The notes under the pieces were generated by a model that ran no database searches, was not told where the DNA came from, and saw nothing but the letters and a program-made list of their open reading frames with translations. A DNA stretch of 64,000 nucleotides from Sphingomonas sp. So64.6b (lineage in GTDB: Bacteria > Pseudomonadota > Alphaproteobacteria > Sphingomonadales > Sphingomonadaceae), in the NCBI RefSeq assembly GCF_014171475.1, contig NZ_CP048817.1, positions 558,001 through 622,000 of the forward strand. The letters are read 5' to 3'. The position numbers were made by a program, and so were the translations under genes. Shown in pieces: positions 13,846 to 21,830 of this stretch. Within the stretch, counting starts at the first letter, position 1. Every line of letters begins with the position of its first letter.

Positions 13846-14766
13846 TTATGCGCCAATCGCCTCATACCCCGCGCCGCCTGACTGGGTTCGCGCCAGGCGG
13901 GTCAGCCGTTCAGCGAGGAATTCGAGCACCACACGAACGCGCGGCGTGTGGCGCAGCCGCTCGTGAGTCAGCAGCCATATGCCGCGCGGGCTTTCGGGCA
14001 TTGGCGGCAGGCAGCGTACCAGATCCGGGTCGTTATCGGCGATCAGGCACGGCAGTACCGCCAGTCCGACATCGGATCGTACCGCCGCGAGCAATCCCAT
14101 CGCCGAACTGTGATGCATCACCACACTGGCTTCCAGGCCGTTTTTCTGCAGCCACTCGCGATACAGCCGCCACAGGCCATTTTCGCCGCCGCCGACCAGC
14201 GGGTGACCGGCGACTTCGCTGCGGCGCCTCGGATAGCCATGTTCGGCGGCGTAGGAACGGCTGCAATAGAGCGTCCAATGATCGTCGGCGAGCCGTCGGC
14301 CGACGAGACCGGCGCCGGTCGGGCGCACGATGTGACGCAGTGCGATATCGGCCGCACCGGCCGCGAGGTCGCGCACTTCCTCGCTGGTGTCGAGATCGAT
14401 CATGATCGCGGGATAGGCCTGATGCAGATCGCGCAGGATCGGCGAGAGAATGGTGACTGCCAGGATTTCCTGCGCCGTGACGCGTACCGTGCCGCTGACC
14501 TCGCGTTGCTGCGCTGCGGCGGCGTCGCTCAGCGCCTGGGCGGTGCGCTGCACGGCGCGGGCATGCACCAGCAAGTCCGCCCCCGCTTCAGTCAGGCGGT
14601 AACCACCGGGGCTGCGATCGAACAGCGCGACCTGCAGCGCATCCTCCAGCGCTGCGATTCGTCTCGCTGCCGTGGTCTGGCTGACCTTCAGCGCGCGGCC
14701 GGCGGCCAATGTGCTGCCGGTGTCGGCCACTGCCAGGAAATATCGGATGTCATTCCAGTCGACCAT
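13846..14766 (-). CDS. LysR-family transcriptional regulator
   Basis: A 306-aa LysR-type regulator. The N-terminal winged HTH is WNDIRYFLAVADTGSTLAAG...VSQTTAARRIAALED, and a periplasmic-binding-like effector domain follows. I chose the start MVDWNDIRY at 14766; the 41 upstream in-frame residues are unlike the family. It is divergent from the UrcA-family gene, with a TTGCA-N9-TGCAA dyad between them, so that gene is a plausible target. The ligand is unknown. A 217-bp stretch downstream (13629-13845) shows no gene. Confidence 0.9.
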   Translation of the reverse strand: MVDWNDIRYFLAVADTGSTLAAGRALKVSQTTAARRIAALEDALQVALFDRSPGGYRLTEAGADLLVHARAVQRTAQALSDAAAAQQREVSGTVRVTAQEILAVTILSPILRDLHQAYPAIMIDLDTSEEVRDLAAGAADIALRHIVRPTGAGLVGRRLADDHWTLYCSRSYAAEHGYPRRRSEVAGHPLVGGGENGLWRLYREWLQKNGLEASVVMHHSSAMGLLAAVRSDVGLAVLPCLIADNDPDLVRCLPPMPESPRGIWLLTHERLRHTPRVRVVLEFLAERLTRLARTQSGGAGYEAIGA

Positions 14767-14783
14767 CCGGACGTTCTGCACTT

Positions 14784-14802
14784 TTGCATAACGGCAGTGC
14801 AA
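14784..14802. promoter_or_regulatory. LysR-type dyad in a divergent promoter
   Basis: TTGCA-N9-TGCAA is a perfect 5-bp dyad of the T-N11-A type bound by LysR-family proteins. It lies 18 bp upstream of the LysR start and 87 bp upstream of the UrcA-family start. The dyad is seen; binding is inferred. Confidence 0.4.
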
Positions 14803-14888
14803 CATCGTTGTTCGTCGAATCGGCAAATGGAGGCGTAGAAAGAATTCGCACCGGTGCCGAAATCCTCCCCAAATTTCGGAGACAGACA

Positions 14889-15218
14889 ATGAAGACGCTT
14901 TTCACGCTGGCGGCCCTGGCCGCCGCGACCATCGTTGCGCCTGTGTCGGCGCAAGAAACCACGACCGGCAATTCGCCTTACCGGGTGAGCCATGCCGATC
15001 TCGACCTGCGCACTGACGCCGGTATCAGGTCGCTCGACCGTCGCATCGACCATGCCGTTGGCAAAGCCTGTGGCTCGGCTTCCGATTTCGATATCGCAGG
15101 CCAGAATGAAATCCGGCGCTGCCGTAAACAGGCGGTTGCGGCTGCTGCGGCGCAACGCAACAAGGCGATCGATGGCGTTCGACAGCCCGAAATGGCGGCC
15201 AATGAGGTCGCGCGTTGA
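14889..15218 (+). CDS. UrcA family exported protein
   Basis: A 109-aa protein with a clear signal peptide (MKTLFTLAALAAATIVAPVSAQ, cleavage about residue 22). Its mature part fits the UrcA pattern common in sphingomonads: an early V-x-x-x-DLDL-x-T strand (VSHADLDLRT), then LDRRIDHAVGKACG with the first Cys and a later Cys in EIRRCRKQAV. The family is periplasmic and of unknown function. GGAGACAGAC precedes the ATG at 14889; longer in-frame starts lack a signal peptide. Confidence 0.82.
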   Translation: MKTLFTLAALAAATIVAPVSAQETTTGNSPYRVSHADLDLRTDAGIRSLDRRIDHAVGKACGSASDFDIAGQNEIRRCRKQAVAAAAAQRNKAIDGVRQPEMAANEVAR

Positions 15219-15336
15219 GACTGTTATTCCGTGCCGGTGCCATGTCTGGCGCGGATCGCCGTACGGCTTGTCGGTGTCACTGAACCGTCATGGATGACTC
15301 CAAGAAATAAACTGATTGCTCAAGCGGTAAAAACCT

Positions 15337-15365
15337 CTTGAACCCCGAAAACCACCTTCCTATAT
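15337..15365 (+). promoter_or_regulatory. Housekeeping-sigma promoter for the candidate sRNA
   Basis: CTTGAA (15337-15342), a 17-bp spacer, then CTATAT (15360-15365). This matches the alphaproteobacterial RpoD consensus CTTGAC-N17-CTATAT at 11 of 12 positions with ideal spacing. It would start transcription near 15372, just ahead of a run of hairpins. Confidence 0.7.
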
Positions 15366-15371
15366 CGGTGT

Positions 15372-15479
15372 CACGAGGCCCCGTGTCCCCCCTTTCGCGA
15401 GGCCTCGCGATGCACCTTCGGGTGTATCTCCTCCCTGAACCTTGGCCACCTCGGGCGTATGCCCGGGGTGGTTTTTTTA
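15372..15479 (+). ncRNA. Candidate small RNA with anti-Shine-Dalgarno motif
   Basis: About 108 nt between a consensus-like promoter and a strong intrinsic terminator, with no open frame of note. The predicted fold is: CACG/CGTG (15372-15385), a perfect 16-bp palindrome at 15395-15410 able to fold as TCGCGA-ggcc-TCGCGA, a UUCG-capped stem TGCACC-TTCG-GGTGTA (15411-15426), a single-stranded CTCCTCCC (15428-15435), then the terminator. CUCCUCCC loops complementary to the ribosome binding site are the hallmark of alphaproteobacterial alpha-r14/'cuckoo' type sRNAs. Assignment to that class is inference; the size and promoter type fit. It lies between the UrcA-family gene and a minus-strand amidohydrolase. 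Confidence 0.65.
15446..15478 (+). terminator. Rho-independent terminator of the candidate sRNA
   Basis: CCACCTCGGGC-GTAT-GCCCGGGGTGG forms an 11-bp stem (one G-U pair) with a four-base loop. TTTTTTT follows directly at 15472-15478. The T-run is on the plus strand only. Confidence 0.92.
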
Positions 15480-15492
15480 TCGGGAAAATGGA

Positions 15493-16341
15493 TTATTCGG
15501 CGGCGAGCGCCGCAGGCGCGGCAAGCGCTTCGTCGGCGAGCGCATCGATCATGCAGCGCAGCAAGCGTGCCGCTTCCCGCAAGCCCTTGCCAGGCGCATC
15601 GAGCGCGGCATCCAGATACAGCGCGCGATCGAATTCGACCTGCACGGCATGGATATTCTTCGCGGGCGCACCGTGGCGGTCGAGGATATGTCCGCCCGCA
15701 TAGGGCGTGTTGGTCGCCCCGCTTAGTCCCGCCGCCATCGTCTCAGCTTCGAGCCGATGGACGAAGCGCGCCGCTGCCGAGCGCCCGAAGCGATCACCCA
15801 ACACGATCTGGCTGCCCGATGCGAGGGACGGCATCGAATGCAGGTCAAGTAACACCGCCACCCCGAAGCGCGCCCGTGCCGTCGTCAGCAACCGGCCGAG
15901 CAATTCGTGATAGGGGCGATGATCGCCGGCGATCCGGGCCATCACCTCTTCGCCTTCCAACCGGCGCTGCCAGATCTCGCCGGCACTCGCCAGGCGGCGC
16001 GGGATCAGCCCGAGTCCGCCGCGCAGCTTGGCCGACTGCAGGCCGAGCGCACGCCGGTCGGCCCCGGCATCGATATGCGGGTCGCGCTCATTCTCGCTGC
16101 GGTTGAGATCGATCCAGGCGCGCGCGCGCTGCTGTACCAGCATCGTCTCGCTGTGCCGCGCTGCCATCGCCAGCGTATCGATATGGCGGTCCTCGAGCGG
16201 GCGAAGCGCGGTCAATGGGACTCGGATCGCCGCGCGCAACGCCAGCGGATAATCGCGCCCACCATGCGGCACCGACAGGATGACCGGGCTGACCGGCTCG
16301 AGCGGGCCATAAAGATCATAGGGCAGGGCGATATTAGCCAT
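15493..16341 (-). CDS. N-formylglutamate amidohydrolase family protein
   Basis: A 282-aa protein of the N-formylglutamate amidohydrolase (HutG-type) family, which releases formate from N-formylglutamate in histidine breakdown and is widespread as stand-alone copies in alphaproteobacteria. Visible motifs are VILSVPHGGRDYP (metal-binding His), DRHIDTLA, ARAWIDLNRSENERD and VAVLLDLHSMPS. I chose the start MANIALPYD at 16341. No other hut genes are adjacent. It is divergent from cpdR, so the substrate in vivo is open. Confidence 0.87.
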   Translation of the reverse strand: MANIALPYDLYGPLEPVSPVILSVPHGGRDYPLALRAAIRVPLTALRPLEDRHIDTLAMAARHSETMLVQQRARAWIDLNRSENERDPHIDAGADRRALGLQSAKLRGGLGLIPRRLASAGEIWQRRLEGEEVMARIAGDHRPYHELLGRLLTTARARFGVAVLLDLHSMPSLASGSQIVLGDRFGRSAAARFVHRLEAETMAAGLSGATNTPYAGGHILDRHGAPAKNIHAVQVEFDRALYLDAALDAPGKGLREAARLLRCMIDALADEALAAPAALAAE

Positions 16342-16450
16342 CGCGGTCACCGTAGATTGGGCGCATTCTCGTCGCAATGCGTGGATGTGGGCTGGAATTT
16401 CTTAAGGGCTTTGCGCATACACTGGCGGTTCGCAAATGAGTGGGACCGTA

Positions 16451-16828
16451 ATGATCAGGATTCTGCTGGCTGAAGACGACCGGGTGATGCGCGAATATCT
16501 GACGCGTGCGCTTGAGCGTTCTGGCTATGCCGTCAGCGCGGTCGACCGCGGTACCGCCGCGATTCCGCTGCTTGAGACCGAGCATTTCGACCTGTTGTTG
16601 ACCGATATCGTCATGCCCGAGATGGACGGCATCGAACTGGCCCAACGCGCCGGTGAGATGGTCCCGGACCTGCGCGTCATGTTTATCACCGGCTTTGCCG
16701 CCGTCACGCTCAAGGCAGGCAAGCAAATGCCGCAGGCGCGCGTTCTGTCCAAGCCGTTCCATCTGCGCGACCTGGTGCTTGAGGTCGACCGGATGTTCGA
16801 AAAGGAAAGCGCCACCGGCGGGCTTTAA
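16451..16828 (+). CDS. cpdR: CpdR-like single-domain response regulator
   Basis: A 125-aa stand-alone receiver domain with no output domain. Acidic pocket EDD is at residues 7-9, the phospho-acceptor Asp is in LLTDIVMPEMDG, and the switch region is MFITGFAAV followed by LSKPFHLRDLV with the conserved Lys. The D-I-V-M-P-E-M-D-G-I-E-L-A and FITGFAAV strings are typical of CpdR, which controls ClpXP-dependent proteolysis and cell-cycle progression in Caulobacter. The start could also be the ATG at 16436; I prefer 16451 (MIRILLAEDD) by family alignment, with GGGA upstream. Confidence 0.88.
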   Translation: MIRILLAEDDRVMREYLTRALERSGYAVSAVDRGTAAIPLLETEHFDLLLTDIVMPEMDGIELAQRAGEMVPDLRVMFITGFAAVTLKAGKQMPQARVLSKPFHLRDLVLEVDRMFEKESATGGL

Positions 16829-17106: not shown

Positions 17107-17181
17107 GGGCGTGTAGCTCAGTGGTAGAGCACTGTGTTGACATCGCAGGGGTCGCAAGTTCAATCCTTGCCACGCCCACCA
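17107..17181 (+). tRNA. tRNA-Val(GAC)
   Basis: A complete cloverleaf can be drawn: acceptor GGGCGTG/CACGCCC, D arm GCTC-AGTGGTA-GAGC, anticodon stem CTGTG/CGCAG with loop TTGACAT (anticodon GAC, valine), and T arm GCAAG-TTCAATC-CTTGC. The discriminator is A and the CCA end is encoded. The length is 75 nt. Confidence 0.97.
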
Positions 17182-21392: not shown

Positions 21393-21520
21393 GACCAGTT
21401 CCTTCAAGGAATGAGCTGCGAATGGCTCGTTATCCTCTTTCTTTCCTCCAAATTTACTAACGCGGTCGGCGACGGATGGTTGCACTGCGACGACGGGCGG
21501 CGTAGGGCCCGCGTCGTGAC

Positions 21521-21700
21521 GGGTTCCCGGAGACGGGAAGCAAAAGGGAAGTTCGGTGCGTGGACCTGCAGGTCCGCCAATCCGGCGCTGTTCCCGCAAC
21601 TGTAACCGGATAGCCGGTGTTCCATTCATGCCACTGGGCCGATCGGGCCTGGGAAGGCGGAACGCAGGCGACGACCCGGAAGTCAGGAGACCTGCCCGCC
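21521..21700 (+). promoter_or_regulatory. Cobalamin (AdoCbl) riboswitch
   Basis: The landmarks of the cobalamin aptamer appear in order: AAAGGGAAGTTCGGTG, CCCGCAACTGTAA, the B12-box related GCCACTG, GGGAAGGCG, and GACCCGGAAGTCAGGAGACCTGCC closing the aptamer. It precedes btuB, the expected target, which should be shut off when B12 is plentiful. A leader of about 150 bases follows before btuB. The ends are approximate. Confidence 0.94.
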
Positions 21701-21830
21701 ACAGTCGATCCACTGCGCGGGCGGGAAGACCCGGGCGGACGAGGGCGAAACCCCAAAGGGGGCGAACCTTTGAGCGAGCGACATGGACCGGGCCATTGGC
21801 CGGCTGTCGCTCCACGGCATCCGGTACATG

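Follow-up and report, generated by a model that had tools for sequence, protein, structure and literature searches.

A putative conserved small RNA gene of the Sphingomonadaceae, a probable diverged ortholog of alpha-r8 (MmgR/SisA)

Here we describe a putative small RNA (sRNA) gene in a 64-kb stretch of DNA (the whole stretch analyzed, hereafter the window) that is very likely the sphingomonad ortholog of the alpha-r8 (MmgR/SisA) sRNA, with a promoter of its own and a role in masking Shine-Dalgarno regions. As the best explanation of the whole, this view rests on the anatomy of the locus, its conservation, its gene neighborhood, reciprocal matches of covariance models, and the predicted exposure of C-rich stretches. 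Sequence comparison supports a putative sRNA gene that stands on its own, exposes an anti-Shine-Dalgarno stretch, and is conserved in relatives. The cut-off of the Rfam family for alpha-r8 (RF00519, suhB/mmgR), below which the locus scores, is a limit of the annotation model and not a property of the RNA; we therefore regard the locus as a diverged ortholog, not as a plain member by the Rfam rule.

Anatomy of the locus

The features of the locus and its conserved neighbors are given in Table 1. An earlier note, made from the letters of this DNA, had described a CTTGAA-N17-CTATAT promoter followed by a unit of about 108 nt. The promoter sequence is present as described, and TTGAA is kept in the expected upstream stretch in 104 of 141 distinct copies, while a control stretch lying farther upstream has it in 4 of 141; a strict scan for TTGACA/TATAAT promoters gave no match. 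The unit would measure about 107 nt, its two ends being predicted. The same note had pointed to a UUCG-capped stem, which is found as hairpin 2, and to an exposed motif, CUCCUCCC, which is indeed mostly single-stranded in the predicted fold. The sequence CTCCTCCC occupies positions 15428-15435, where its first C closes the stem of hairpin 2 and the remainder is predicted to be unpaired. The terminator was correctly recognized together with its seven T, but its stem has 13 pairs instead of the 11 that had been counted. The 16-bp palindrome that had been noticed (TCGCGAGGCCTCGCGA) does exist at 15395-15410; it appears to be incidental and is not kept in relatives, in which its 3' half pairs with an upstream arm to form hairpin 1. 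As a functional element the palindrome was rejected, since relatives such as the one at locus L040 keep the stem of hairpin 1 instead.

Table 1. Features of the sRNA locus and its conserved neighbors (window positions).
Feature	Position	Strand	Basis or remark
-35 element CTTGAA	15337..15342	+	read from sequence
-10 element CTATAT, 17-nt spacer to the -35 element	15360..15365	+	read from sequence
sRNA gene, probable alpha-r8 (MmgR/SisA) ortholog, ~107 nt	15372..15478	+	both ends predicted
Hairpin 1, sphingomonad form	15374..15407	+	predicted fold, relatives
Loop of hairpin 1, UCCCCCCUUU	15386..15395	+	unpaired in predicted fold; candidate second seed
Hairpin 2, 8-bp stem capped by a UUCG loop	15409..15428	+	predicted fold
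Seed and linker, UCUCCUCCCUGAACCUU	15427..15443	+	15427-15428 close hairpin 2; 15429-15443 unpaired in predicted fold
Rho-independent terminator	15444..15478	+	13-bp stem 15444-15473; seven T 15472-15478
N-formylglutamate amidohydrolase gene (PF05013), convergent, conserved neighbor	15493..16377	-	start codon uncertain
Response regulator (PF00072), second conserved neighbor	16436..16828	+	Pfam

The predicted fold of 15372-15480 has a free energy of -57.2 kcal/mol (z -5.8), and none of 200 shuffled sequences was equally stable. A terminator scan found one terminator versus 0.5 in shuffled sequences. It should be noted that CTCCTCCC by itself is no evidence, because it occurs once in the 64-kb window while 1.8 occurrences are expected; what raises the locus above chance is its conservation in the genomes of the family.

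A distance of 14 nt separates the end of the T run from the stop codon of the convergent amidohydrolase gene, as might be expected if the locus were no trans-acting sRNA but belonged to a neighboring gene as its terminator or as part of its 3' UTR. We consider this very unlikely, because the minus strand beside the stem has no T run, the promoter word is conserved, and the identity of a 20-nt core in 30 of 30 loci is more than a mere terminator would account for. Moreover, the gene upstream is not conserved, for which reason an origin from a 3' UTR was rejected: its protein was found in only one of 30 loci, the window's own. This small protein (window 14889-15218), which we take to be UrcA-like, shows a signal-like start and matches nothing in Pfam.

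Conservation and gene neighborhood

DNA matches to a 201-bp stretch of the locus were found in 221 of 298 family genomes, representing 76 of 96 genera (E<=0.01). A sphingomonad covariance model, built from 30 copies, gave a single match per genome in 100 of 119 family genomes, which represent 82 of 96 genera (E<=0.001); 12 of the 100 had supplied training sequences, and the other 19 genomes gave no match at E 0.001. In the alignment, CCTCCCTGAACCTTGGCCAC is identical in all of the 30 best loci, an identity that is flattered by the choice of the best-scoring loci. RNAalifold, applied to the 30-copy alignment, places 20 pairs, all within hairpin 2 or the terminator, and 13 of these show double compensatory changes; hairpin 1 was misaligned by MAFFT, and RNAalifold therefore gives no pairs in it. 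When named genome records were scanned for TCCTCCCTGAACCTTGGCCAC, at least 120 of them matched. Among the 80 titles of matches listed, those with a genus or family name belong to sphingomonads and erythrobacters; a few go no further than Alphaproteobacteria or Pseudomonadota, and a single title reads Actinobacteria, which may reflect a mislabeled bin.

The gene neighborhood is conserved as well. The amidohydrolase gene and the response regulator, which is presumably CpdR, accompany the sRNA at all but one (L066) of 30 loci, a count of 29 in which the window's own locus is included. Among 120 named records, the amidohydrolase gene lies within 800 nt in 107, the regulator gene in 96, and both in 95. 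As for the 13 records in which the amidohydrolase was missed, six have less than 550 nt on that side, in one the gene lies just past the limit, and in the other six it was not found in 1.5 to 7.9 kb of flanking sequence. The gene was also present at 26 of 28 family loci fetched by the sphingomonad model (10 of these genomes were already among the first 30). In other families, it adjoins 24 of the 30 top RF00519 loci (1.5-kb flank) and 15 of 28 loci fetched by the sphingomonad model. According to the part of PMC12559287 consulted, alpha-R8 RNAs occur in all Alphaproteobacteria except the Rickettsiales, mostly as a single copy beside an amidohydrolase gene, and sisA is the copy that holds this place. 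The location beside an N-formylglutamate amidohydrolase gene, an alpha-r8 trait in most species, is thus found at the locus, and since this gene adjoins it, the sphingomonad RNA is the positional counterpart of mmgR/sisA.

Some other features were observed in the surroundings. A tRNA gene (window 17107-17178) lies just past the response regulator, and several relatives' loci are arranged likewise. Two viral contigs (L249 and L250) begin with the sRNA, and these hits proved to be host flanks of prophage-like contigs; the reading frames near the sRNA are, we assume, integrase-like, and the pattern looks as if prophages use the neighboring tRNA as an attachment site. A cobalamin riboswitch (108 bits) is present at window 21504-21713.

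Relationship to alpha-r8 and alpha-r14

The earlier note had inferred membership of the alpha-r14, or 'cuckoo', family and had proposed a covariance search with Rfam sRNA models. In this search, the ar14 model has no match at the locus, and RF00519 matches it over the full length of the model, with a score below the cut-off (33.7 bits versus a gathering score of 41; E 7.4e-5 genome-wide). As regards ar14 (RF02344), six places were found in the genome up to E 10, none of them at the locus and none above the cut-off, and there was no match up to E 5 within 14500-16500. In the accessible part of PMC10746234, alpha-r14 RNAs are described as having three hairpins, each with CCUCCUCCC where it is unpaired. 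The locus resembles a NfeR1/CcsR-like RNA in having CUCCUCCC, three hairpins, and a C-rich loop in hairpin 1; yet CCUCCUCCC is absent from the 64-kb window, the shorter motif CUCCUCCC occurs in it once, in the linker between hairpins, and the gene neighborhood is that of alpha-r8. Membership of alpha-r14/cuckoo, which the missing CCUCCUCCC and the ar14 result led us to rule out, is therefore extremely improbable. The anti-Shine-Dalgarno class of mechanism that had been proposed along with it is supported by homology to SisA-type RNAs.

The locus is the third-best RF00519 place in the genome, after two copies that score above the cut-off. At relatives' loci, RF00519 matched 12 of 20 and 7 of 9 at E<=0.5, all below the cut-off, and gave nothing at this threshold in 10 of those 29. 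Only one of the 100 places found by the sphingomonad model (G082, 43.6 bits) overlaps the 150 above-cut-off RF00519 matches listed, which are most of those in the family, a few more being present. In the reverse test, in which the sphingomonad model was run on 190 genomes of the class, 36 matches were obtained outside the own genome and one congener, and 33 of them fall on RF00519 hits; the remaining three include L121, with a 25.3-bit RF00519 match, and L125, with none at E<=0.5. RF00519 itself matched 118 of the 190 class genomes at E<=0.01, 86 of them above the cut-off, which is a less complete coverage than the near-universal occurrence given in PMC12559287; among 14 control genomes it gave a match in Thermus composti at E<=0.01. 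Rfam scores of about 33 bits are not decisive alone, because the unrelated ar35 model reaches 33.9 bits in the same genome (G000:C1:3018745-3018862, +; E 2.1e-4, cut-off 45). The same strand carries a weak match to RF00519 that overlaps this ar35 match.

According to the available text of PMC12559287, the alpha-r8 core consists of UUUCCUCCCU, which is single-stranded and lies below a weak hairpin, together with a terminator. Positions 15427-15436 align with this 10-mer at 9 of 10 positions (the form at the locus is UCUCCUCCCU), and 8 of the 10 are unpaired in the predicted fold, the hairpin above being strong; a Rho-independent terminator follows the core, as in alpha-r8. The exact 10-mer is found in 12 of 143 sphingomonad copies, and CCUCCC is in all 143 because the set was selected by it.

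Copies above the Rfam cut-off

The two above-cut-off RF00519 copies of the own genome (G000:C1:3981013-3981088, +, and 4141357-4141433, -; loci L002 and L003) carry a CCUCUCC seed, have no amidohydrolase neighbor, and score 56.9 and 55.7 bits, versus 33.7 at the locus. In 87 of 119 family genomes, a listed above-cut-off copy occurs together with a match to the sphingomonad model. The best of the above-cut-off family copies, which were chosen by score so that other forms may exist, read in essence GCCTTTCAGGCATCCTCTCC[CT]AA, and CCTCTCC is present in 31 of 31 (the two from the own genome plus 29 others, one per genome), none of which has an amidohydrolase gene within a 1.5-kb flank (0 of 31). 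By comparison, TTCCTCCC is present in 30 of 30 copies examined from other families. From these counts it follows that the mostly sub-cut-off copy keeps the usual place and seed, while the above-cut-off copies lie elsewhere and carry another seed, which suggests that the latter are paralogs with a different seed in the Sphingomonadaceae.

The higher scores of these two copies, together with the absence of the hairpin 1 loop from 30 copies of other families, could also be taken to mean that the place of alpha-r8 next to the amidohydrolase gene has been taken by an unrelated sRNA, which acquired a C-rich seed by convergence, the true alpha-r8 being the two above-cut-off copies. This is unlikely, since CTTC-GGGTGTATCTCCTCCCTGAACCTTGGCCAC at the locus aligns with CCCTTCCTGGGCGTTTCCTCCCTAAACTTGGGCCGC of the class copy L069, 33 of the 36 reverse-test matches fall on RF00519 hits, and the above-cut-off copies have both a changed seed and another location. 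We therefore keep to orthology of the locus with alpha-r8.

The 5' hairpin

For the region upstream of hairpin 2, 150 candidate sphingomonad sequences were reduced to 143 distinct copies by leaving out two that lay at contig ends and then merging duplicates. C3+UUU or C3+UCAU is present there in 139 of the 143, versus 0 of 30 in the same stretch of copies from other families, many of which can form some hairpin there. The mean unpaired probability is 0.98 for the loop of hairpin 1 (139 sequences), 0.83 for the core (lowest value 0.31), and 0.38 for the whole RNA (143). In an ungapped subset of 64 sequences, the stem of hairpin 1 is 67% paired, a value that is probably low because part of the subset is out of register, whereas none of 500 shuffles exceeded 61% and slid versions reached no more than 44%; a single position shows as many as six types of pair. 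According to the text available from PMC12559287, CrfA binds SisA in a region that starts at nt 33 and includes the 10-mer. The 10-mer of the sphingomonad RNA would begin near nt 56, counted from the predicted 5' end, so that the 5' part is apparently longer in sphingomonads.

Hairpin 1 with its predicted exposed C-rich loop thus appears to be a sphingomonad feature, and it is perhaps a second pairing site. A more far-reaching proposal, which we put forward tentatively and think somewhat less likely to be right than wrong, is a two-headed regulator that combines the inherited CUCCUCCC seed with a gained site in the hairpin 1 loop (CCCCUUU or CCCUCAU, depending on the lineage), while the unlinked copies were reseeded to CCUCUCC; two RNA lineages would then have different targets, and annotation by the cut-off would pick the one that moved. 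The kind of RNA is already known, and the sphingomonad form, with its added C-rich loop and split seed, seems to be the new part, as it was not met in our literature search, a weak negative because subscription papers lay mostly outside it. The published alpha-r8 phylogeny, cited in the part of PMC12559287 consulted, may already list sphingomonad members.

Proposed mechanism and targets

By homology to SisA, the RNA most likely masks Shine-Dalgarno regions of mRNAs. An sRNA of about 107 nt would be made from its own sigma-70-type promoter and end at the intrinsic terminator; the stretch CUCCUCCCU, which follows hairpin 2, precedes the terminator, and is predicted to be exposed, would pair, probably aided by Hfq, with the G/A-rich Shine-Dalgarno regions of several mRNAs, thereby blocking ribosome loading and lowering translation. 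Its targets would most likely be genes for nutrient uptake and carbon status, as in relatives. As far as the available text of PMC12559287 goes, SisA, with Hfq, pairs upstream of a start codon, as proven by compensatory mutation, and represses genes for TonB-dependent receptors and others. The part of PMC6563040 consulted reports that Sphingopyxis SuhB represses thnR with Hfq, and an RNA of that name thus acts in this way in a sphingomonad.

A simple search for Shine-Dalgarno targets gave 14 matches versus 4 in the control, with eight distinct candidate sites before frames of at least 80 codons; this difference is no proof of targeting, because G/A-rich sites before ATG are enriched anyway. 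None of the candidates was shared in the congener loci fetched (30 of 42 rows). Among possible long complements of the core, as in a CrfA-like sponge, none stands out (7 imperfect matches versus 3 in the control).

Implications

Our analysis gives an identity, a position, and testable seeds to a widespread sRNA of the Sphingomonadaceae that lies mostly under the Rfam cut-off. Target predictions based on annotated suhB copies would miss the sphingomonad alpha-r8 RNA. With the two kinds of copies, nature also provides a comparison of the ways in which, after duplication, a regulator of the anti-Shine-Dalgarno type may acquire another site or switch seeds. Under the tentative two-headed proposal, a single ancestral regulator of this type would have given rise to two RNA lineages in the sphingomonads.

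Comparison with known systems

The closest known RNAs are those of the alpha-r8 family, MmgR of Sinorhizobium meliloti and SisA-D of Caulobacter crescentus. Like the locus, they have an anti-Shine-Dalgarno core between a hairpin and a terminator and an adjoining amidohydrolase gene, and the Rfam model and the model built here match in both directions. The locus differs from them by a 5' hairpin with a conserved C-rich loop, by a strong hairpin 2 (8 bp) where that of alpha-r8 is weak, by the core UCUCCUCCCU instead of UUUCCUCCCU, and by a score under the Rfam cut-off. The sphingomonad RNA would also be longer, with a predicted length of about 107 nt versus 77 nt for MmgR. The part of PMC7143759 consulted gives MmgR three predicted stem-loops as well, and the two RNAs therefore do not differ in how many hairpins they have.

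The alpha-r14/cuckoo RNAs (NfeR1; RFMSmelA075/A099, as given in the accessible part of PMC3927594) share with the locus a C-rich anti-Shine-Dalgarno motif and the proposed repression of multiple mRNAs. Unlike the locus, they carry CCUCCUCCC in each hairpin loop, and they form a separate Rfam family without a match there. Finally, SuhB of Sphingopyxis granuli TFA (61 nt, according to the text available from PMC6563040) is, like the RNA described here, a sphingomonad sRNA; it acts on a 5' UTR and bears the name of the Rfam family; judging from length alone, its likelier counterpart would be the unlinked CCUCUCC copies.
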